Shown: positions 5,549 through 36,908 of the stretch, piece by piece
Layout of the letters: every line of letters begins with the position of its first letter
Numbering within the stretch: the first letter of the stretch is position 1
Assembly (NCBI RefSeq): GCF_009938225.1
Contig: NZ_AP019658.1
Coordinates: 1,054,001 to 1,118,000 of the forward strand
Direction of reading: 5' to 3'
Source: Vibrio ponticus
GTDB lineage: Bacteria; Pseudomonadota; Gammaproteobacteria; Enterobacterales; Vibrionaceae
DNA: 64,000 bases
Program-made: the position numbers and the translations under genes
Notes under the pieces: generated by a model
Seen by the model: only the letters and a program-made list of their open reading frames with translations
The model's database searches: none
What the model was told of the DNA's origin: nothing

Positions 5549-6675
5549 TAGTGAAAACCAGGCACATAGTTTCGAACTATCGTGTTAAACTCGGTATAAA
5601 ATTTGTCTTCACTGTAATGTTCTGCTCTCTGTTCACTTAGCATGCACAGTTCACGATACAAACCTTGATTATCATTGACTTCATCAAGTGCTTTGGTCAG
5701 CGCTACTTTATCTTTCGCGTTGTAAACTAGACCATATTTAGCCGTTTCAAATTCACCATGCTTAGGTAAACGACTAGGTTGTAGAATGTCTACTGGACCA
5801 TCGGTTAAAGAGGATATTACTGGTTTACATAAAGACATTGCCTCAACCATAGCGTTTGGAAACCCCTCAAAGTGGGAACTTAGAACAAAAGAGTGAGCGC
5901 TTCCCATGTAAGGATAAGGGTTAGATACAAAACCTAAAAACTTCACTCTGTCTCCAATACCCGCATCTTTCGCATGCTGCTTCAAGAACTCAAGTTCTTC
6001 TCCATCACCAAGAATGACAAGTTCACGTGACAACTTTGACTTGGAAAAAGCTGTAATTAAATCATCAAACCCCTTAAGCTTTACTAATCGACCTATTGCT
6101 AATATATAGCCTGGCTCCAAGCCTTCAATGGCACTGTATTTTGCTTTATTTCGGATATCAACCAAGTTGTAAGAGTTATTTAAAATACTTATTTTATCAG
6201 GTGCTATACCATAATCATTTTTAAGGCAGTCACCTACACCTTTAGATACACAAATAGTCGTGTCACCACCACTGAAAACAAACTTAATAATCATCTTTTT
6301 CAGTGAAAACAATTTCCCCCTTAAACGTGCATTGGTATTACCTCGTTCACTGAGTAAACTCTTGTAGCTAAATAGCTTAGCGCCAATTATGTTGCACCAG
6401 TTTGATCGAAACAGGAAACTCACCACAAAATCTGGTTGAATTTTTTTAATTAACTCAATATATCGGTATGTTTGACCTATGACACCAAATTTATTTCCTA
6501 GCCTATGAATAGTGATCGACTCTGGAAGGCTATATAGTTCTTCTTTTTCATCTAGAATGATTACTTCCATGTCATATTGTCTTTTTTGGTCAGAATCAAT
6601 CATTTTCATTAGTTTAGAGAACACTTTCTCAGCCCCACCTCCGGACAATGAATTGATTACAAAGATCCCTTTCAT
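5548..6675 (-). CDS. Family 4 glycosyltransferase
   Basis: GT-B enzyme of 375 residues. The N-terminal donor-acceptor loop reads NSLSGGGAEKVF (8-19). The C-terminal domain has ILGDGEELEFL and the intact E-x7-E motif in EGFPNAMVEAM, followed by CKPVISS. It probably transfers one sugar during assembly of the lipid-linked repeat. An AAGG Shine-Dalgarno precedes the ATG. It is the first gene after a 585-base non-coding gap in the cluster, so it may begin a separate transcription unit. The sugar is unknown. Confidence 0.88.
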   Translation of the reverse strand: MKGIFVINSLSGGGAEKVFSKLMKMIDSDQKRQYDMEVIILDEKEELYSLPESITIHRLGNKFGVIGQTYRYIELIKKIQPDFVVSFLFRSNWCNIIGAKLFSYKSLLSERGNTNARLRGKLFSLKKMIIKFVFSGGDTTICVSKGVGDCLKNDYGIAPDKISILNNSYNLVDIRNKAKYSAIEGLEPGYILAIGRLVKLKGFDDLITAFSKSKLSRELVILGDGEELEFLKQHAKDAGIGDRVKFLGFVSNPYPYMGSAHSFVLSSHFEGFPNAMVEAMSLCKPVISSLTDGPVDILQPSRLPKHGEFETAKYGLVYNAKDKVALTKALDEVNDNQGLYRELCMLSEQRAEHYSEDKFYTEFNTIVRNYVPGFH

Positions 6676-7260
6676 AAAAATACAACCTTACTTATTCACA
6701 CAAGTATTTACTTAACAACCACGAGGCAAGGAAGCAAACCATCAACTAGAGAAAATTCAAACCTCACTTACATATTGAGCATTGACTGCTCACTAGAATT
6801 GCTGCCTTTCAATGTTGACGGACTTACTTATAAACAACTAAAAATAACTATGCCACAGCAACAAAAAAATTAAAGGCATTTAAACACCATTCCATTCTTC
6901 GTCTCTATTTTGATACATTTACTTTCTATAGATTTAGTTGCATTCATTATCCGACATTCTAAACATTAAGATTACGCCAAACTAAACCTCAATGATTATT
7001 GTGAGCTGGCAACTATCTTATATTTTGGAAAAATCCAACTTTTGAAACAGTTGTGCATTATTACCTTAAAGTTCGATAAACAGAATACATATTCAATCCC
7101 ATAAAGAACACACTATTAAAATAAACAACAAACTACTGTTAGATCGCAACCAGTTAGCTAGGGACAATTAACACCAAAAATAACCGATGTAATTAAATTT
7201 GATACTAGTGGGGTATAAACGCTGCTGTGTAGCATTTATAACCCACTGGCGTACCCACTC
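6676..7260. other. 585-base AT-rich gap inside the polysaccharide cluster
   Basis: No convincing reading frame on either strand. An imperfect inverted repeat near 7210-7245 lies just downstream of the Wzc stop and could act as a weak terminator. The gap separates the export/regulation genes (barrel, Wza-like, Wzc) from the glycosyltransferase/polymerase genes and so may hold an internal promoter. I found no JUMPstart/ops element in it. Confidence 0.4.
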
Positions 7261-9483
7261 TTAAGTGTTAGTTTGACTCTGCAGAGAATACTCTGAATAA
7301 GTATGCTTGCCTTCTTTTCTTACGTGGACCTGATTAAGTATCACGCCATCAATGGGGATTCCATGTCGAGAAACTAAATTCATTGCATGTTTGTAGACTG
7401 ATTTACTAGTACTACTCGCTTTCATTACAAGAAGAATACCTTTCGCAATCTTCCCAACAATAAACGCATCCTTCACTGGCAAAATGGGAGGAATATCGAT
7501 AATTATTCTGTCATAAGACTGAGAGAGCTTTTCAATAAGCTCTTCAAATGCTCTGCTACTTAATATCTCCTGCGGCTTGGCTACCACCATTCCTGCGGTC
7601 AAAACATCGAGTTTACCATCTTCAAAGGATGAAATGCTTTCCTCAATAGAGCTGTTCATAAGTAATATGTTGGTTAACCCTTTATGACTACAAGATAAAC
7701 CAAAACGATCCGCAACTGACGGTCTTCTAAGATCGGCGTCAATTAACAACACCCTTTCCAGCTTCGACATCGAGTGTGCAAGACTAATAGCGGTCGTTGT
7801 TTTGCCCTCTTCCGGTATTGAGGAGGACACAGCTAGCACTTTGCGATTCGTCCCACGTATAGCTAAATATATCGATGTTCGTATAGAATCTACAGATTCC
7901 TGGAAAATATTGAATTGACCACTTTTGAAAATCGAGACATCTAGCGGCGCGTTTCTATATTTTCTATCTCTGATCATTGGTATTGTACCCGTTGGCAACA
8001 AACCCAATTTGTTTTCAAAATCTCGGCTTGAATCAATACGGTTGTTAAACACATCCAGCGTGATAATTAGCCCGGCAGATAGCATTAAGCTTCCCAATAA
8101 CCCCAACACGACTATCAAGCCTCGATTTGGCTTAAACGGCAACTCAGGCACCAGTGCATAGTCACTAAAGCGTGCATTAGTTGAACTAAAATCGCTTGTC
8201 GCAGATGTCTCTTTCTGGCGAGTTAAGAATAAGTCATAGAGTTTTGCATTAGAGTCGACCTCTCTTTTCAATGCGTCATATTCACGTTCAACAACGCTCA
8301 ATGTTTGAAATTCCGCTTTCTTACTCATCAATTCATTTTTCAATAGGGATTCTTGCTCTCGAGCTGTAACAAGCTCCTTTCGAATACCTTCGATCAACTT
8401 CTCAACTAGCTTGTTAGCTCTTAACTGGATCGACGCAAGTTGAGCTTTAGCCTGAATCATCTTGTCATGCTTGGGACCATAGCGCTTCGATAGCTCACTG
8501 ACTTGCTTTTCTGTGTCAGCTTCTGCATTCCGAATGTCTCTAATTTGCGGATGGTTTGAAATCAACGAAATCGAAGCAACTGATGATATATCCGTATTTT
8601 GGTTGCTTTTTAGCGCGTAGTATAAGGACTGCGCTTCTATTCGTTTACTTGTCGCGTTAGCCAATCTCTCGGTGAGATTGGAGAGCTCTGAACTTGTCAA
8701 CGCGGAAATCCCACGATTATCGATTAATTCTTGCTGTTTCAAAAAGTCCAGCAAGGCTTGTTCAGAGGCATCTAATTGCTGTTTGAGTGAAGCGAGACGA
8801 TCATTGATCCAGCCTGTTGCTTGCTCCGTCGCCATTAACTTAGAGTCTAAGTTATTTTCAATGTAAGCGAGACCAATTTCATTTGCTACCAAAGCCGCCA
8901 ATTTAGGGTCACGGGACTCAAATGATATTTTAACTAACTGAGTTTTACGGATTGGTGTTATGGTCATACTTGCTTTAAAGCGCTTCAAAACGTTCTGATT
9001 CACTGTAAGCGCTGTTTCATCCCTATCAATCGTGTCTTGAGTCGATACGCGAGAAAAGTATGTCTCTACTAAGGGCATCATTTTAATTTGACTGACTAAA
9101 CCCTTAATCAAACTTGAACCTGCCACATCTGTGCTAGAGATAAACTCTGGGTGACTTTCAAGTGCTAATTTTTCTATTACACGTTGCGCTACTTGATTTG
9201 ATTTAAGTATTTCAAACTGAGTTAAGTAATATTCTTTAGCCGAAGTATCAATTCCTACGACTTCTTCAATCGAAATTGCATTTTTTTGTGAAGATTCGAT
9301 AAGTAGGGTTGCAGTCGCTTTGTAAGTCGGCTTTATCGACATCGCAACAAAAATCGACGCAATCGTACAAAAAACTGAGAAGAGTAAGACAGATAACCAA
9401 CGCTTTTTGACTAAATGAAAATAGTAGCCAATATCGATGATTTTTTCCTTTTCAACTTGTCCAGTTTGAAAATTATTAAGCAT
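7261..9483 (-). CDS. Wzc-like polysaccharide co-polymerase with tyrosine autokinase domain
   Basis: 740 residues. An N-terminal Wzz-type chain-length domain begins with a membrane segment near residue 30 and is followed by long coiled coils (about 220-440). A second membrane segment lies near 470-490. The C-terminal BY-kinase has Walker A SSIPEEGKTTTA (about 553-564), Walker A' LLIDADLRRP (about 578) and Walker B IIIDIPP (about 660). The tail is short with only two tyrosines (HTYSEYSLQ), fewer than in E. coli Wzc. It controls polymer length and export with the Wza-like protein encoded just upstream. Confidence 0.93.
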   Translation of the reverse strand: MLNNFQTGQVEKEKIIDIGYYFHLVKKRWLSVLLFSVFCTIASIFVAMSIKPTYKATATLLIESSQKNAISIEEVVGIDTSAKEYYLTQFEILKSNQVAQRVIEKLALESHPEFISSTDVAGSSLIKGLVSQIKMMPLVETYFSRVSTQDTIDRDETALTVNQNVLKRFKASMTITPIRKTQLVKISFESRDPKLAALVANEIGLAYIENNLDSKLMATEQATGWINDRLASLKQQLDASEQALLDFLKQQELIDNRGISALTSSELSNLTERLANATSKRIEAQSLYYALKSNQNTDISSVASISLISNHPQIRDIRNAEADTEKQVSELSKRYGPKHDKMIQAKAQLASIQLRANKLVEKLIEGIRKELVTAREQESLLKNELMSKKAEFQTLSVVEREYDALKREVDSNAKLYDLFLTRQKETSATSDFSSTNARFSDYALVPELPFKPNRGLIVVLGLLGSLMLSAGLIITLDVFNNRIDSSRDFENKLGLLPTGTIPMIRDRKYRNAPLDVSIFKSGQFNIFQESVDSIRTSIYLAIRGTNRKVLAVSSSIPEEGKTTTAISLAHSMSKLERVLLIDADLRRPSVADRFGLSCSHKGLTNILLMNSSIEESISSFEDGKLDVLTAGMVVAKPQEILSSRAFEELIEKLSQSYDRIIIDIPPILPVKDAFIVGKIAKGILLVMKASSTSKSVYKHAMNLVSRHGIPIDGVILNQVHVRKEGKHTYSEYSLQSQTNT

Positions 9484-9518
9484 AATATTATCCGATATAA
9501 TTTTGTTAAATTGATCGA

Positions 9519-26301: not shown

Positions 26302-26659
26302 ACCTCTAGCTCTGATTAGCCGCTTCATTGGTGCGCACCCATAACAACGAACAGCAAAGTTGCTTACACCTCGGCTGAGCCTGAAGATAACTGGAAAACA
26401 ACTGTTTAACTATTTTTTGAATAGCGCCAGATGGGGTTAACCGATATGTGTCTAGGGGGACGCCTAGTCTGACCCTATGACAAATCATAGGCAGCGGCGA
26501 GACCGCAATAAGAGATCCTCAATATGTGTTTGTCGTAAGCAATGCTTGATGACCGAAATGACAAAGCGAAGTAGATAACTTTGTTGTTCGAAGAGAATTG
26601 GCTGCTCACGCAGCCAACAGGATGTTATTGCCTATTGACAGGCAGAAGGCTCATATGTG
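26302..26659 (+). mobile_element. Remnant of ISa: non-coding right end without transposase
   Basis: About 358 bases closely related to the tails of the two full ISa copies (compare 28660-28995 and 32872-33229), including the terminal AGAAGGCTCATATGTG. The transposase half is missing. It is followed directly by TTAG, the R'' core of a cassette attC, just as in the complete copies. It diverges from them at scattered positions yet keeps the same stem-loop segments, so the RNA-coding tail is structurally preserved. Confidence 0.82.
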
Positions 26660-26664
26660 TTAGC

Positions 26665-27414: not shown

Positions 27415-27493
27415 ATACTCATTGAGCCTTCTCCTCCAACTTAGCCTCTCGACTAAGCTGGAAGGCGACGAAACCCAAAACGGAGAAGACTCG

Positions 27494-28537
27494 ATGAGAT
27501 TCTATAACAACCAGCATAACTATTACTGTGGCATTGATCTGCATGCGCGCTTACTTTACGTCTGTATTCTCGATTCACTTGGCAATAAAGTCCTACACAA
27601 GAAGATTGATGCAGATCCCGATGCGCTACTTGAGTTAATTACGCCTTACCAAGATAACATCATCATTGGTGTCGAATGCATGCACTGCTGGTATTGGGTT
27701 AGCGATCTTTGCCTTGATTATGCATTTGACTTTGTACTCGGTCATGCGCTGTATATGAAAGCGATTCACGGAGGTAAAACGAAAAACGATCGTATCGATT
27801 CTTTCAAAATTGCGTCACTGCTTCGTGGTGGTCATTTCCCTATCGCCTATGTTTACCCTAGAGCCATGCGAGCAACACGAGATTTGCTACGACGAAGAAC
27901 CAAAATCATGCGCCATGGGGCTGACCTCAAAGCCCACGTTGCCAACACCTTTAGCCAATACAATCAGCAAAGCCACAATGTTCAGCTGCGCTACCCGTGC
28001 GCACGTGAACAGGTACGCAATCAGTTCGATGAGCCCTCAATCAATCGAAGTATCGATATGGATTTAAATGTCATCGCCTTTTACACCAAGGAATTGGCGA
28101 GCGTCGAACACATTATTGAAAAAACTGCCAAGCAGCACAGTGCTCAAGATTATACTCTCATCCAAACTGTGCCTGGTATTGGTCGCATTCTCGCCCTCAC
28201 TATCTTGTATGAAATTGGCAATATTGAACGCTTCCCGTCGGTGCAAAACTTTGCCTCTTACTCACGGTTAGTCAAATGCAAAGCCGAATCAGCGGGTAAA
28301 CAAAAAGGAACCAACGGCAACAAGATTGGTAACGCCTACTTAAAATGGGCATTCTCCGAAGCAGCGGTTCTTTATTTAAGGAGCAATGAACCCGCCAAGA
28401 AATACATTCAACGCTTGCAAAAACGCATGAGCAAAGCCAAAGCGCTATCAGCGTTAGCTCATAAGCTAGGGCGATGTGTCTACTTCATGCTGAGGGACAA
28501 AACGGTGTTTGATGAGAAACGATTTTTACCCCAATAA
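27494..28537 (+). CDS. ISa transposase copy 1 (IS110/IS1111 type)
   Basis: 347 residues from the ATG at 27494, which has GGAGAAG upstream. An earlier TTG at 27422 lies within the IS end and is unlikely. The RuvC-like DEDD domain shows Asp in GIDLHAR, Glu in VECMHCWYW and two Asp in KNDRIDS. The C-terminal Transposase_20 domain starts TVPGIGRILALTIL and ends with the Ser-containing SAGKQKGTNGNKIGNAYLKW. Compared with copy 2 one extra C near the end changes the last codons, so LPNKSHNEVS becomes LPQ-stop. Confidence 0.93.
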   Translation: MRFYNNQHNYYCGIDLHARLLYVCILDSLGNKVLHKKIDADPDALLELITPYQDNIIIGVECMHCWYWVSDLCLDYAFDFVLGHALYMKAIHGGKTKNDRIDSFKIASLLRGGHFPIAYVYPRAMRATRDLLRRRTKIMRHGADLKAHVANTFSQYNQQSHNVQLRYPCAREQVRNQFDEPSINRSIDMDLNVIAFYTKELASVEHIIEKTAKQHSAQDYTLIQTVPGIGRILALTILYEIGNIERFPSVQNFASYSRLVKCKAESAGKQKGTNGNKIGNAYLKWAFSEAAVLYLRSNEPAKKYIQRLQKRMSKAKALSALAHKLGRCVYFMLRDKTVFDEKRFLPQ

Positions 28538-28539
28538 GT

Positions 28540-28979
28540 CGCACAGTGAAGTGAGCTGAACGTCTAACTGGTGCTGAGTGAGAACACGTCACTGACTCTA
28601 ATTTACTGGGATTTAAGCCCGAAAAGGTCGGTTGTGTCAGGTAGTCCAAGCCCTCTTGCTTTGATTAGCCGCTTCATTGGTGCGCATCCACAACAACGAA
28701 CAGCAAAGTTGCTTACACCTTGACTGAGCCTGAAGATCACTGGAAAACAACTGTTTAACCATTTTTTTGAATAGTGCCTGCTGGGGTTAACCGATAAATG
28801 TCTAATGGCCCAACCAATAATGGTTGGCAGCGGAGAGACCGCAATAAGAGACCTTCTATATGTGTTTGTCGTAAGCAATGCTTGATGACCGATATGACAA
28901 AGCGAAGTAGATAATTTTGTTGTTCGAAGAGCATTGGCTGCTCGCGCAGCCAACAGGATGTTATTGCCTATTGACAGGC
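28540..28979 (+). ncRNA. Putative guide (bridge/seek) RNA region of ISa copy 1
   Basis: Long non-coding tail after the transposase, where IS1111-group elements are reported to encode their targeting RNA. It contains several stem-loops (for example CCAACC-ATTATTGG and GGCTGC-TCGC-GCAGCC). Segments resembling the attC target are AACTGTTT at 28749-28756 and TTGTTCGAAGAG at 28920-28931, whose complement CTCTTCGAACAA differs from target CTCTTGAACAA by one extra base. RNA ends are not known. Confidence 0.5.
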
Positions 28980-28995
28980 AGAAGGCTCATATGTG

Positions 28996-29799
28996 TTATG
29001 TGTAATGTTCGACTAGATCTTTGATAAGTGCCGGACTAAAAATACTATAATTAACTTCCAACCATCTCTCGATTTGTCGCGTCCTTTTTTCACCTTTTGA
29101 TTGCTTAGTTAACACAACAAAATCTCTTTCTTTATTCAAAATAGAAATAACATCCGCTATTTTCGTATTATTTACAAGGTTTAAATAATGGTCATCAATA
29201 GCATTACAGCATTTGATCAAAAACGTAGTGAGGGTCGTTGCTTCTTTTAAAGTCACTTTATCAGCACGAAAGTCTGAAATAGCTTTGTCCACATCAAAGT
29301 GATAATAATCTTTATAAATATCATTAGATTTACTTTGAAGAAATTGTTTATCTTTAGATGAAATATTTGCATTAGACTTAGCATGAACAATTTTATTACG
29401 CCAATGACACATTAATTCAGTTAATACGACCCACTCTCTTTCAATTCCAGGAATACTTTTACAAAACGCTGAAACCCTTTTGGCTTTAGAGTCTTGTGAT
29501 TTCAATGCTATATTGAAATTTATCCCCGATGGAGACCAAAAAGGGTCTTTACTTAACTCTGAAAGATACTCAAATAACATTTCCGCATGAAAAACAATAG
29601 ATGAGCGAATAGCAAATCGTCTGGCATTTTTGGATGCACCACCAACATTCACGGGCTTCCATGTAATATTTAAACCAGCTGGAGTTGTAGTGCTATTTGA
29701 TAAATGAGAGAGTGAAACAGCGATTGTATTTAAACTATGGATGCTACCGCCAACTTCATCTGTTAGTTTGTGGAGATAAGGGGACTTTTTTGCCATCAT
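28996..29799 (-). CDS. HEPN-motif protein in an integron cassette
   Basis: 267 residues from the tandem ATG at 29799/29796. The motif RNKIVH (R134-x4-H139, in CHWRNKIVHAKS) inside a helical protein matches the RX4-6H catalytic signature of HEPN RNases; the helix FHAEMLFEYLSEL (70-82) fits the first HEPN helix. A longer frame to 29886 would overlap the tRNA-like gene and is rejected. The stop codon TAA is itself part of the attC R'' core, and ISa begins at the next base. The gene follows the tRNA-like gene by 18 bases in the same cassette, suggesting a joint function such as toxin or defence nuclease with a tRNA-like partner. That is inference. Confidence 0.72.
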   Translation of the reverse strand: MMAKKSPYLHKLTDEVGGSIHSLNTIAVSLSHLSNSTTTPAGLNITWKPVNVGGASKNARRFAIRSSIVFHAEMLFEYLSELSKDPFWSPSGINFNIALKSQDSKAKRVSAFCKSIPGIEREWVVLTELMCHWRNKIVHAKSNANISSKDKQFLQSKSNDIYKDYYHFDVDKAISDFRADKVTLKEATTLTTFLIKCCNAIDDHYLNLVNNTKIADVISILNKERDFVVLTKQSKGEKRTRQIERWLEVNYSIFSPALIKDLVEHYT

Positions 29800-29817
29800 T
29801 GAACCTAATGAGTGTAA

Positions 29818-29901
29818 TGGTACTGTCGGGACTCGAACCCGCATTTCCAGATTTAAAGAAACTTTTAGTTTCTGGTGTCTTGCCAATTAGACGATAATAC
29901 C
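29818..29901 (-). tRNA. tRNA-like gene with enlarged anticodon arm, no encoded CCA
   Basis: Read on minus: acceptor GGTATTA pairs with CAGTACC (one mismatch and one G-T). The D arm is GTCT-AATTGGCA-AGAC. The T arm holds GGGTTCGAGTCCC. The anticodon stem CCAGA/TCTGG is intact, but the loop is 19 bases instead of 7 (AACTAAAAGTTTCTTTAAA). It can itself form AGAAACT-AAA-AGTTTCT with the stem. The rest resembles phage or bacterial tRNA-Gln-like sequences. The 3' end reads ACCATTA, so CCA is not encoded after the discriminator. It may be a decayed tRNA, a tRNA with an insertion, or a decoy. Confidence 0.65.
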
Positions 29902-29970
29902 ATTACGCAAAGGATGCTACCACTATATGGTTACTCGATCAATGTATAATTACACATAGACATAATGCCC

Positions 29971-30059
29971 CCCACGAGGTGCTAGCCTCCAATATCGTGG
30001 GTTAGCTTAAAGCCAGAGCCATAATTAGTGTGACTAAACAACTAAATTTGGAGGCTAGC
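29971..30059 (+). promoter_or_regulatory. Shine-Dalgarno-sequestering hairpin before the ISb transposase (copy 1)
   Basis: GCTAGCCTCCAA at 29981-29992 is perfectly complementary to TTGGAGGCTAGC at 30048-30059, which is the ribosome site touching the ATG. A second stem, CCCACGA (29971-29977) with TCGTGGG (29995-30001), encloses the first arm. Transcripts entering from outside would therefore be poorly translated. Confidence 0.7.
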
Positions 30060-31214
30060 ATGAATAACGATAGCATAATTTTCATTGGCTTAGATACGCA
30101 TAAGTCCTTTATCCAAGTCGCAGTTCTGCAAGGTCATCGTGGTGCTCAACCGCAACAACTTGGTCGTATTAAATCTAACAAGTCGGCGTTGGTTAAATTG
30201 GCCCAGCAACTCCAATCAAAATATCCTAAAGCTACCTTTCATTTTGTCTACGAGGCGGGCCCATGCGGATACTGGACTTATCGCCTGCTCACAAGCCTTG
30301 GGCACTGTTGCTTTGTTGTCGCGCCATCACTCATCCCCAAAAAACCTGGTGACCGAGTGAAGACTGACAAGCGCGATGCCGCTAAGCTTGCCAAACTCTT
30401 CAAGGCTGAAGAGCTCACACCTATCTACGTTCCAGAAGCCGAAGATGAAGCCATACGAGATCTCTCAAGAGCCAGAGAAACCGCCATGAAAGATCTTAAG
30501 GACGCTAAGTTCCAACTCAAAGGCTTCCTACTTCGCAATAATGTTCAGGCAACGGTGAATGACAACTGGTCTAAAAAGCATCTACGGTGGCTGACAGACC
30601 TCATCCTCCCTCACCATAGCCAACAGATCGTTCTGCAAGAGATGATCATTACTATCAGTGAACGAATGCAAAGGCTTCAGCGACTCGATAATGAACTGCT
30701 CCATCAGGTAAAAAATTGGCGATACTATCCTGTGGTCAAAGCGGTTCAAGCCATGCGAGGCGTGCGATTGCTGGTCGCTCTAGGCACCATCGCCGAACTT
30801 GGTGATTTACGACGGTTCGATCATCCCAGAAAGCTAATGGCTTACCTTGGTCTCGTTCCGACCGAAAGCTCTAGTGGCGGCAAAACTCGACGGGGCAGCT
30901 TAACCAAGTGCGGGAACAGTCGAGCAAGACGACTATTGGTGGAGGGTGCACATACCTACAAGCATAAAGCCAATATCTCTGTAGAGCTCCAACTACGGCA
31001 AGAAGGACTCCCCAAGGAGATCGTCGATATTGCTTGGCAAGCACAGCAACGATTATGTCGACGTTACCAACGACTACTTCAAAAAGGTAAACATAGGAAT
31101 GTTGTGGTCGTGGCTATCGCTAGAGAAATGATCGCTTATATCTGGGCTATCGCAAGAGAGGTTGTCGTAAGCGACGTTGATCCCAAAACGCGCATCGCAA
31201 GGCTACCTGCATGA
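30060..31214 (+). CDS. ISb transposase copy 1 (IS110 family)
   Basis: 384 residues from the ATG at 30060 with TTGGAGG directly upstream; a GTG at 30030 is less likely. The DEDD domain shows Asp in IGLDTHKSFIQVA, Glu in YEAGPCGYW, and two Asp in VKTDKRDAAKL. The C-terminal Transposase_20 domain starts VQAMRGVRLLVALGTIAELG, with the likely catalytic Ser in ESSSGGKTRRGSLTKCGN. The DEDD and serine sites act together at the attC target. It is on the strand opposite to the cassette genes. Confidence 0.93.
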   Translation: MNNDSIIFIGLDTHKSFIQVAVLQGHRGAQPQQLGRIKSNKSALVKLAQQLQSKYPKATFHFVYEAGPCGYWTYRLLTSLGHCCFVVAPSLIPKKPGDRVKTDKRDAAKLAKLFKAEELTPIYVPEAEDEAIRDLSRARETAMKDLKDAKFQLKGFLLRNNVQATVNDNWSKKHLRWLTDLILPHHSQQIVLQEMIITISERMQRLQRLDNELLHQVKNWRYYPVVKAVQAMRGVRLLVALGTIAELGDLRRFDHPRKLMAYLGLVPTESSSGGKTRRGSLTKCGNSRARRLLVEGAHTYKHKANISVELQLRQEGLPKEIVDIAWQAQQRLCRRYQRLLQKGKHRNVVVVAIAREMIAYIWAIAREVVVSDVDPKTRIARLPA

Positions 31215-31636: not shown

Positions 31637-31715
31637 ATACTCATTGAGCCTTCTCCTCCAACTTAGCCTCTCGACTAAGCTGGAAGGCGACGAAACCCAA
31701 AACGGAGAAGACTCG

Positions 31716-32780
31716 ATGAGATTCTATAACAACCAGCATAACTATTACTGTGGCATTGATCTGCATGCGCGCTTACTTTACGTCTGTATTCTCGATTCAC
31801 TTGGCAATAAAGTCCTGCACAAGAAGATTGATGCAGATCCTGATGCACTGCTTGAGTTAATTACGCCATACCAAGATAACATCATCATCGGTGTCGAATG
31901 TATGCATTGCTGGTATTGGGTCAGCGATCTTTGCCTTGATTATGCGTTTGACTTTGTACTCGGTCATGCGCTGTACATGAAAGCGATCCACGGGGGTAAA
32001 ACCAAGAACGACCGAATCGATTCTTTCAAAATTGCGTCACTCCTTCGTGGTGGTAATTTCCCTATCGCCTATGTTTATCCAAAAGCGATGCGAGCAACAC
32101 GAGATTTGCTGCGACGAAGAACCAAAATCATGCGCCATGGCGCTGACCTAAAAGCTCATGTTGCCAACACCTTTAGCCAATACAATCAGCAAAGCCACAA
32201 CGTTCAGCTGCGCTACCCATGCGCCCGTGAACAAGTACGCAATCAGTTCGACGAGCCCTCAATCAATCGAAGTATCGATATGGATTTAAATGTGATCGCC
32301 TTTTACACCAAGGAATTGGCGAGCGTAGAACACTTTATTGAAAAGACAGCCAAGCAGCATAGTGCTCAAGATTATTCTCTCATCCAAACTGTGCCTGGTA
32401 TTGGTCGCATTCTCGCCCTCACTATCTTGTATGAAATCGGTAATATTGAACGCTTCCCGTCGGTGCAAAACTTTGCCTCTTACTCACGGTTAGTCAAACG
32501 CAAAGCCGAATCAGCGGGCAAACAAAAAGGAACCAACGGCAACAAGATTGGTAACGCCTACTTAAAATGGGCATTCTCCGAAGCAGCGGTTCTTTATTTA
32601 AGGAGCAATGAACCCGCCAAGAAATACATTCAACGCCTGCAAAAACGCATGAGCAAAGCCAAAGCGCTATCAGCGTTGGCTCATAAACTGGGGCGATTTG
32701 TCTACTTCATGTTAAGGAACAAAACAGTGTTTGATGAGAAACGATTTTTACCCAATAAGTCGCACAATGAAGTGAGCTGA
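31716..32780 (+). CDS. ISa transposase copy 2 (IS110/IS1111 type), full length
   Basis: 354 residues from the ATG at 31716. Same DEDD and Transposase_20 domains as copy 1 with about five substitutions (for example N for H in RGGNFP, R for C in LVKRKAES). It keeps the complete C-terminus LPNKSHNEVS. This is therefore the better candidate for an active enzyme. It could act on all three ISa copies, including the truncated one if its left end were present. Confidence 0.93.
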   Translation: MRFYNNQHNYYCGIDLHARLLYVCILDSLGNKVLHKKIDADPDALLELITPYQDNIIIGVECMHCWYWVSDLCLDYAFDFVLGHALYMKAIHGGKTKNDRIDSFKIASLLRGGNFPIAYVYPKAMRATRDLLRRRTKIMRHGADLKAHVANTFSQYNQQSHNVQLRYPCAREQVRNQFDEPSINRSIDMDLNVIAFYTKELASVEHFIEKTAKQHSAQDYSLIQTVPGIGRILALTILYEIGNIERFPSVQNFASYSRLVKRKAESAGKQKGTNGNKIGNAYLKWAFSEAAVLYLRSNEPAKKYIQRLQKRMSKAKALSALAHKLGRFVYFMLRNKTVFDEKRFLPNKSHNEVS

Positions 32781-32782
32781 AA

Positions 32783-33213
32783 GTCTAACTGGTGCTGAGT
32801 GAGAACACGTCACTGACTCAAATTTACTGGGATTTAAGCCCGAAAAAGTCGGTTGTGTCAGGTAGTCCAAGCCCGCTTGCTTTGATTAGCCGCTTCATTG
32901 GTGCGCATCCATAACAACGAACAGCAAAGTTGCTTACACCTTGGCTGAGCCTGAAGATAACTGGAAAACAACTGTTTAACCATTTTTTTGAATAGTGCCT
33001 GCTGGGGTTAACCGATAGATGCTAGGGGGACGCCTAGTCTGGCCCAACCAATAATGGTTGGCAGCGGAGAGACCGCAATAAGAGACCTTCTATATGTGTT
33101 TGTCGTAAGCAATGCTTGATGACCGATATGACAAAGCGAAGTAGATAACTTTGTTGTTCGAAGAGCATTGGCTGCTCGCGCAGCCAACAGGATGTTATTG
33201 CCTATTGACAGAC
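32783..33213 (+). ncRNA. Putative guide RNA region of ISa copy 2
   Basis: Non-coding tail parallel to that of copy 1, with the same AACTGTTTAACC and TTTGTTGTTCGAAGAG segments conserved. A stem unique to this copy and the remnant, CTAGGGGGACGCCTAG, is missing from copy 1. The ends of any RNA are not determined. Confidence 0.5.
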
Positions 33214-33234
33214 AGAAGGCTCATATGTGTTATA

Positions 33235-35630: not shown

Positions 35631-35753
35631 CTAAACTCCAAGAAAATGCATAGACATAATGCCCCCCACGAGGTGCTAGCCTCCAATATCGTGGGTTAGC
35701 TTAAAGCCAGAGCCATAATTAGTGTGACTAAACAACTAAATTTGGAGGCTAGC

Positions 35754-36908
35754 ATGAATAACGATAGCATAATTTTCATTGGCTTAGATACGCATAAGTC
35801 CTTTATCCAAGTCGCAGTTCTGCAAGGTCATCGTGGTGCTCAACCGCAACAACTTGGTCGTATTAAATCTAACAAGTCGGCGTTGGTTAAATTGGCCCAG
35901 CAACTCCAATCAAAATATCCTAAAGCTACCTTTCATTTTGTCTACGAGGCGGGCCCATGCGGATACTGGACTTATCGCCTGCTCACAAGCCTTGGGCACT
36001 GTTGCTTTGTTGTCGCGCCATCACTCATCCCCAAAAAACCTGGTGACCGAGTGAAGACTGACAAGCGCGATGCCGCTAAGCTTGCCAAACTCTTCAAGGC
36101 TGAAGAGCTCACACCTATCTACGTTCCAGAAGCCGAAGATGAAGCCATACGAGATCTCTCAAGAGCCAGAGAAACCGCCATGAAAGATCTTAAGGACGCT
36201 AAGTTCCAACTCAAAGGCTTCCTACTTCGCAATAATGTTCAGGCAACGGTGAATGACAACTGGTCTAAAAAGCATCTACGGTGGCTGACAGACCTCATCC
36301 TCCCTCACCATAGCCAACAGATCGTTCTGCAAGAGATGATCATTACTATCAGTGAACGAATGCAAAGGCTTCAGCGACTCGATAATGAACTGCTCCATCA
36401 GGTAAAAAATTGGCGATACTATCCTGTGGTCAAAGCGGTTCAAGCCATGCGAGGCGTGCGATTGCTGGTCGCTCTAGGCACCATCGCCGAACTTGGTGAT
36501 TTACGACGGTTCGATCATCCCAGAAAGCTAATGGCTTACCTTGGTCTCGTTCCGACCGAAAGCTCTAGTGGCGGCAAAACTCGACGGGGCAGCTTAACCA
36601 AGTGCGGGAACAGTCGAGCAAGACGACTATTGGTGGAGGGTGCACATACCTACAAGCATAAAGCCAATATCTCTGTAGAGCTCCAACTACGGCAAGAAGG
36701 ACTCCCCAAGGAGATCGTCGATATTGCTTGGCAAGCACAGCAACGATTATGTCGACGTTACCAACGACTACTTCAAAAAGGTAAACATAGGAATGTTGTG
36801 GTCGTGGCTATCGCTAGAGAAATGATCGCTTATATCTGGGCTATCGCAAGAGAGGTTGTCGTAAGCGACGTTGATCCCAAAACGCGCATCGCAAGGCTAC
36901 CTGCATGA
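35754..36908 (+). CDS. ISb transposase copy 2 (IS110 family)
   Basis: 384 residues, identical to copy 1 in protein sequence, with the same ATG, TTGGAGG ribosome site and sequestering hairpin (arms at 35675-35686 and 35742-35753). DEDD and Ser motifs are intact (IGLDTHKSF, YEAGPCGYW, KTDKRDAAK, SSSGGKTRRGS). Confidence 0.93.
   Translation: MNNDSIIFIGLDTHKSFIQVAVLQGHRGAQPQQLGRIKSNKSALVKLAQQLQSKYPKATFHFVYEAGPCGYWTYRLLTSLGHCCFVVAPSLIPKKPGDRVKTDKRDAAKLAKLFKAEELTPIYVPEAEDEAIRDLSRARETAMKDLKDAKFQLKGFLLRNNVQATVNDNWSKKHLRWLTDLILPHHSQQIVLQEMIITISERMQRLQRLDNELLHQVKNWRYYPVVKAVQAMRGVRLLVALGTIAELGDLRRFDHPRKLMAYLGLVPTESSSGGKTRRGSLTKCGNSRARRLLVEGAHTYKHKANISVELQLRQEGLPKEIVDIAWQAQQRLCRRYQRLLQKGKHRNVVVVAIAREMIAYIWAIAREVVVSDVDPKTRIARLPA

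Follow-up and report, generated by a model that had tools for sequence, protein, structure and literature searches.

The systems most like the unit described here include toxins and nucleases, many of them HEPN-related, that are held in check by an RNA or that act on tRNA. In C. difficile the HEPN-related toxin AbiF (Abi_2/AbiD/F), which has an R-x4-H motif and an abortive-infection setting, is reported to be neutralised by direct binding of a cognate upstream small RNA, RCd22, which contains two repeated abiF motifs and a terminator (PMC12373285). The type III toxin-antitoxin systems (ToxIN, AbiQ, TenpIN and CptIN) are described as having the RNA gene first and the RNase gene second, with the RNA proposed to bind the toxin (PMC12373285). 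Other HEPN RNases cut tRNA itself; PrrC and RloC cleave anticodon loops (PMC3710099) and Cas13a cleaves tRNA anticodons (PMC11042736). Their activity is described as controlled by a fused ATPase, by restriction partners or by CRISPR RNA, and the available parts of the two sources make no mention of a tRNA mimic (PMC3710099; PMC11042736). Here we analyse a unit of less than 1 kb in a 64,000-nucleotide (nt) stretch of the Vibrio ponticus genome (NZ_AP019658.1, positions 1,054,001 to 1,118,000; “the window”), in which a tRNA-like RNA (29818..29901, minus strand) lies directly upstream of a gene for a HEPN-like protein of 267 residues (28996..29799, minus strand). Both had been picked out in an earlier note on this DNA, made from the sequence alone.

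The unit shares with AbiF and RCd22 the order of RNA and HEPN-like gene, but the RNA is a single tRNA-shaped molecule for which no terminator was found; the 18 nt spacer between RNA and start codon (29800..29817, minus strand) has no terminator-like site. Furthermore, Abi_2 was absent from Pfam scans of the HEPN-like proteins. Rfam holds a model of the abiF RNA, and the RNA site matched only tRNA in Rfam scans at gathering thresholds. The type III hallmark of an RNA directly upstream of an RNase gene fits by position in 19 of 19 loci (the RNase being predicted and the antitoxin role putative), but each locus holds a single tRNA-like unit beside the gene, with no tandem repeats, and the toxin is HEPN-like rather than of the ToxN fold that type III toxins have. 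In HEPN-MNT (HepT-MntA) pairs the antitoxin is a nucleotidyltransferase protein, whereas here the position of the partner is taken by an RNA; no MNT was named by Pfam or PADLOC among ten neighbours from six loci and four open reading frames of the window, although no search was aimed at it. With PrrC, RloC and Cas13a the unit has in common the HEPN active-site motif and a proposed anticodon-loop target (PMC3710099; PMC11042736), and with Vpc_cass2 (PDB 3jrt), a HEPN protein in an integron cassette (PMC3710099), it would share that kind of carrier. The AvcID system of Vibrio cholerae is alike in that a small RNA beside a defence enzyme restrains it, but that enzyme is a cytidine deaminase and the RNA is not called tRNA-like in the available part of the source (PMC12409362). 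In its presumed way of working the unit is classed with AbiF plus its RNA and with the type III systems; the lack of repeats keeps it out of type III proper, and its RNA has a loop that sets it apart from functional tRNAs.

The tRNA-like RNA with a swollen anticodon loop was found directly upstream of the HEPN-like gene in all 19 testable loci, and because the order is the same in every one of them the arrangement is more than chance. The loci span Gammaproteobacteria and Bacteroidota and comprise 16 of the 17 for which upstream DNA was fetched, two more (L020 and L029) and the window. They come from Thalassotalea, Colwellia, Parendozoicomonas, Pseudomonas, Methylophaga, Trabulsiella, Thalassolituus, Pseudoalteromonas (two) and an Oceanospirillaceae metagenome-assembled genome, with four Bacteroidota records, two IMG/VR contigs, two more genomes and the window making up the rest. 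The remaining fetched locus, L015, is a weak partial match (residues 105-195) starting 352 bases from the end of its stretch, and could not be tested because the RNA's place falls off the contig. It is clear that the tRNA-like RNA and the HEPN-like protein are a genuine conserved, co-inherited pair, and their co-inheritance in distantly related bacteria suggests that the RNA controls the protein. In two of the 19 loci, L014 (approximately 8001-8760) and L018 (approximately 6001-6790), the HEPN frame is interrupted and the RNA is intact; the reverse was seen in none. These interruptions could be sequencing errors.

The pairing was also followed in both directions through genome samples. Among 369 genomes of the window's class, the protein profile found only the window's own genome and one other (G365), and the RNA model R1, built for this family, found the RNA in these two again (98 and 76.6 bits). 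A further 52 matches of the RNA model, in 50 genomes, scored 52.9-58.9 bits and were 74-76 nt long, as against 87-91 nt for the family RNAs; the 12 of them that were run through ARAGORN were ordinary tRNAs for Glu (5), Gln (5) and Arg (2). Second-clade RNAs (for example L029, 55.5 bits) overlap with ordinary tRNAs in score, and it is by length that the two are told apart. In 296 genomes of the window's taxonomic family the protein was found in the window's genome and G640, and the RNA in the same two. Neither RNA nor protein was found alone in the two samples, in which the unit is rare: beyond the window's own genome it occurs in 1 of 368 and in 1 of 295. The only RNA seen without the gene, a finding that the earlier note had said would count against a link, is a family RNA truncated before the T arm in two of 5426 E. 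coli genomes, which lack a HEPN-like gene of this family there; it is either a remnant or a case of partner exchange. These truncated copies (L027 6001-6069, strain TUM1880; L028 6001-6069, strain MEI2A-0323) lie near icd and intE, and the gene downstream, WP_063121962.1, has a HEPN-like RNSVAH motif of its own. No other copy of the protein was found in 201 further genomes around G365, and in 247 genomes of the family a second-clade profile matched nothing but the gene of the window. For the second clade there was also no match in plasmids, in E. coli genomes at the DNA level or in scans of viral contigs, and one protein of each clade had no match in a phage collection. Pattern scans of viral contigs returned 6 + 5 stretches, one of which (L023) is the contig of L016; the family gene was seen beside none of the other 10.

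In the window the RNA measures 84 nt to its discriminator base. ARAGORN calls it at 29817-29902 as tRNA-Phe (aaa), and at 37.4 bits against the Rfam tRNA model RF00005 (gathering score 29) it is the sole Rfam match at or above the gathering threshold in the 64 kb, so that the tRNA-like sequence proposed at this position is recognised by both. In the window's genome R1 gave it 98 bits, and 18 other tRNA matches, 69-77 nt long, scored 48 bits at most. R1 finds all 19 RNAs, at 55.5-100 bits, but this recovery is not independent, since 17 of them built the model and the RNA of L018 is identical to that of L002 (for which reason the RNA alignments and pair statistics do not include L018), leaving L029 as the only new one. 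At the same position, the independent Rfam tRNA model cleared its gathering score in 15 loci out of 19, the window among them; of the other 18, 14 pass (10/11 and 4/7), with L002, L007, L014 and L018 below threshold. ARAGORN reports the RNA in three loci only: the window (aaa), L007 (aaa) and L020 (att).

Several findings speak against the RNA being a decaying tRNA. In all 153 pairs of 18 loci the RNA shows higher similarity than the coding sequence. The 80 nt upstream had averages of 48-50% for the 141 pairs whose genes are less than 70% identical and of 57-68% for the 12 pairs with more similar genes; shuffled RNAs gave 49.5%. RNA and gene similarity rise together (rho 0.77 for the 18 loci and 0.61 for the 16 of the main clade; 0/5000 permutations in each case). 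In the canonical cloverleaf 88.6% of cells are paired across 18 RNAs and 13 of 21 pairs show a double change, a number reached by 7 of 500 shuffles; the covariation score of 0.458 compares with 0.204 when shuffled (0/500) and at most 0.112 when the structure is slid. The tRNA architecture is under selection. The core residues T8, A14, G18, TTC and A69 (position 58) are invariant or at least 90% conserved in the 18 RNAs, so that the family has a cloverleaf with a conserved tRNA core. Random decay in homologues, which would have spoken against the proposed pairing, is not what is seen: a decayed tRNA or integration scar was rejected, given the covarying stems and a conservation that is higher in the RNA than in the gene. 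When the window RNA was folded by energy on its own, the cloverleaf was not obtained.

The acceptor, D and T arms and the anticodon stem had been described as kept in the window, and all are present; the RNA is, however, altered at the acceptor/T junction as well as in the anticodon arm to which change had been ascribed. The T arm (29826..29842, minus strand; GCGGG, TTCGAGT, CCCGA) has a G49.A65 mismatch, found in 15 of 18 RNAs and canonical in L017, L020 and L029. In the main clade it is better drawn as a 6-base-pair (bp) stem with a bulged A beside a 5-bp acceptor stem, a variant fold in which 97.5% of cells pair. Read from the alignment, most main-clade RNAs have a rebuilt acceptor/T junction, which is a sign of a dedicated RNA. 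A Glu or Gln parentage of the RNA body was considered and dropped: the ordinary tRNAs that matched best were Glu (5), Gln (5) and Arg (2) among the 12 class loci examined, but Gly, Lys and Asp within the genome of the window.

The anticodon stem of the window RNA (CCAGA, 29871..29875; TCTGG, 29847..29851; both minus strand) is also supported by covariation, with 96.7% of cells paired and both-sided change in some sequence at four of five pairs. It closes a loop of 19 nt (AACTAAAAGTTTCTTTAAA, 29852..29870, minus strand), as the earlier note had it, and the loop is 19-23 nt in all 18 aligned RNAs, in place of the 7-nt loop with U33 and anticodon of a tRNA. The motif CUAAAA (29863..29868, minus strand) is conserved in 16 of the 18, with AUUAU there in L020 and L029 of the second clade, and U-N-A ahead of the closing stem is invariant. 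A second hairpin in the loop, also claimed for this DNA, dominates in only one of seven folded arms, the window's own (GAAACT/AGTTTC); its sequence is not conserved, and it was dropped as a functional feature. Some pairing within the loop is possible, but covariation does not back it. An inner UAAA/UUUA helix was likewise rejected; it has two invariant pairs, yet its covariation score was reached by 42 of 500 shuffles.

With such a loop, which appears unable to present a normal anticodon, the RNA is unlikely to decode. It could still be argued that it is a working or spare tRNA, resistant to the HEPN nuclease, that keeps translation going: it has a tRNA body, CCA is encoded in 11 of the 19 copies and ARAGORN reads an anticodon in three loci. 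The lack of a conserved U33 and anticodon in a loop of this size and the G49.A65 mismatch speak against it. Furthermore, we know of no bacterial splicing route for an insert of this kind in an anticodon loop, and an intron-bearing functional tRNA was rejected, as no constant spliced loop could be drawn and U33 is not kept. We therefore consider a decoding role very improbable. Alternatively, the stretch after CUAAAA, which differs between loci, could direct the nuclease to a target, as the RNA does in Cas13. The combination of HEPN and RNA would suit such a guide or cofactor, but the variable part is a short, AU-rich stretch of roughly 5-10 nt that resembles neither an array nor a spacer, making this the least probable of the readings considered.

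The place of the RNA immediately before the gene, without exception, raises the further possibility of a cis-acting leader, in which a tRNA-like fold in the HEPN mRNA sets its expression, either by way of RNase P/Z processing or because the HEPN protein itself binds and cleaves the fold. In L011 (5543-5632) and L014 (7898-7986) the HEPN start codon begins no more than 3 nt past the RNA's discriminator base; 3' maturation would there leave an almost leaderless message, so that 3' processing and translation would compete. Against this, the whole tRNA core is conserved and CCA is encoded next to the discriminator base at 11 of the 15 loci outside the Bacteroidota records, which gives the look of a matured RNA; it is missing from the window (where TTA stands instead), L002, L008 and L018, and from all four Bacteroidota records. 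We judge a cis-acting leader to be distinctly unlikely. Sigma-70-like sites 5' of the RNA had a shuffle p below 0.1 in seven of 19 loci (L003, L004, L007, L008, L010, L016 and L017) and below 0.05 in four; in the window p was 0.52.

The protein starts with the ATG at 29799, 18 nt after the RNA as had been stated, and its RNKIVH motif is at residues 134-139. A sequence search gave 60 database proteins of the family including the window's own. R134, N135 and H139 of the catalytic R-N-x3-H motif are invariant in 29/29 aligned main-clade proteins, as are R128, N129 and H133 in 24/24 of a second clade. The AlphaFold model of the window protein is all-helical and confident (mean confidence score, pLDDT, 91.8), and the motif falls at the end of a long helix (121-138; 117-133 in the second clade), which is where HEPN proteins carry their R-phi-x3-H motif (PMC3710099). 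The best structural matches of the model were HEPN toxins, and HEPN entries took ranks 1-8 and 1-10 of the VIA structural-match lists for the two clades respectively. By motif and predicted fold the protein is thus a member of the HEPN superfamily, in line with the earlier proposal, and RNase activity is predicted. Pfam, NCBIfam and PADLOC gave nothing significant for the window protein and a PDB sequence search gave no match; HEPN_RiboL-PSP was touched, below or near threshold, by 6/24 second-clade and 1/29 main-clade members. PADLOC gave four scattered single matches in the main clade. In the second clade (alignment A3) two of 24 members matched its model of a reverse-transcriptase-associated HEPN protein (DRT), below or near threshold with a best E value of 3.2e-4, possibly a link, by sequence similarity, to defence reverse-transcriptase effectors.

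Given the cutting of tRNA by PrrC, RloC and Cas13a, the control of AbiF by an RNA, the anatomy of the unit and the richness of Vibrio integrons in anti-phage cassettes (PMC12409362), we infer an RNA antitoxin that mimics a tRNA substrate. The unit would then be a two-part toxin-antitoxin or abortive-infection system in which a HEPN RNase is restrained by its dedicated tRNA mimic, a reading to which we give a probability of about 0.55. Most likely the RNA would be made first and in excess, and would bind the HEPN dimer as a substrate mimic and keep it inactive. Loss or displacement of the RNA, for example when a phage stops host transcription or attacks tRNAs, would free the HEPN protein, which would then cut RNA, probably tRNA anticodon loops, and growth would stop. 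In a more specific form, the unit would be a new class of toxin-antitoxin or immune module: a pseudo-substrate with the enlarged anticodon loop would plug the active site of a HEPN anticodon nuclease and also act as a sensor of attack on the tRNA pool, tRNA damage or phage shut-off of transcription freeing the nuclease; this we hold at somewhat under even odds. It may instead be that the HEPN protein rides on the RNA as on a bait, and that a phage nuclease or modifier attacking tRNAs alters this bait and thereby activates the nuclease. A lure would have to keep the tRNA core, as the RNA does, the loop is altered at the site where anticodon nucleases act, and some neighbours are defence genes, but no trigger is known, and the loop motif and remodelled junction make the RNA a poor copy of any one host tRNA, so that we consider this rather unlikely. 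Among the ten neighbours, which were chosen from six loci with no background control, three matched named defence models, one a candidate model and six none; the named ones are a CBASS-type cyclase and E1-E2 at L007 and DzbA at L014.

Among the matches listed in a search of titles and abstract openings of open-licence PMC articles, none described a tRNA-like RNA as the partner of a HEPN protein. If the restraint of the RNase by the RNA is real, the unit shows how a tRNA can become the regulator of an RNA-cutting enzyme and is another case, beside AbiF, of a HEPN protein with a cognate RNA, an arrangement proposed as the origin of Cas13 (PMC12373285). As it is small and looks self-contained, it is directly testable.

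The RNA has also left a trace in protein databases. A NTIxV-like motif lies near the N-terminus in 171 of 177 retrieved proteins; in 24 it occurs at an offset of at least 27, because these proteins are N-terminally extended. All 24 extensions, read by eye, are the translated 3' part of the tRNA-like RNA, 23 of them from the T arm (MQVRILT, MRVQILT, GSNP or RFESS) and one, P0016, from the acceptor end (MPPG). The window's own protein, P0001, is among the extended ones, and the N-termini MQVRILT and MRVQILT (in proteins such as P0031, P0047, P0064 and P0118) are, from their sequence, probably gene-caller artefacts. The RNA goes unnoticed because ARAGORN reports it in 3/19 loci and because in gene calls its 3' part becomes a false N-terminus.

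The RNA and gene may travel as one integron cassette. No attC lies between them, as previously noted, the 18 nt gap being too small for one, and attC-like ends were read by eye on both sides in six of the 12 loci printed (L002, L003, L004, L006, L010 and L017); our own attC script found nothing in the window and nothing in shuffles. A direct repeat from the end of the gene (D1, 28788..28998, minus strand), common to 26452-26662 and 33022-33232 with 85 and 92% identity to the reference copy, is probably an attC region next to an IS110-family insertion sequence, and such repeats would fit a cassette. On the other side, a stretch repeated exactly (D2, 29955..30254, unstranded; 100% identical at 35649-35948) leads into the IS110-family transposase gene at 30030-31214. 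The RNA is outside D2, and its being part of the neighbouring IS110-family element was rejected, since the duplicated stretch ends at 29955. Pfam places three IS110-family transposase genes around the unit (27422-28537, 30030-31214 and 31644-32780), those at 27422 and 31644 being near-identical. At the Galbibacter locus (L012), Rfam gives a group II intron match of 50.8 bits at 9424-9501, approximately 650 bases downstream of the HEPN gene.
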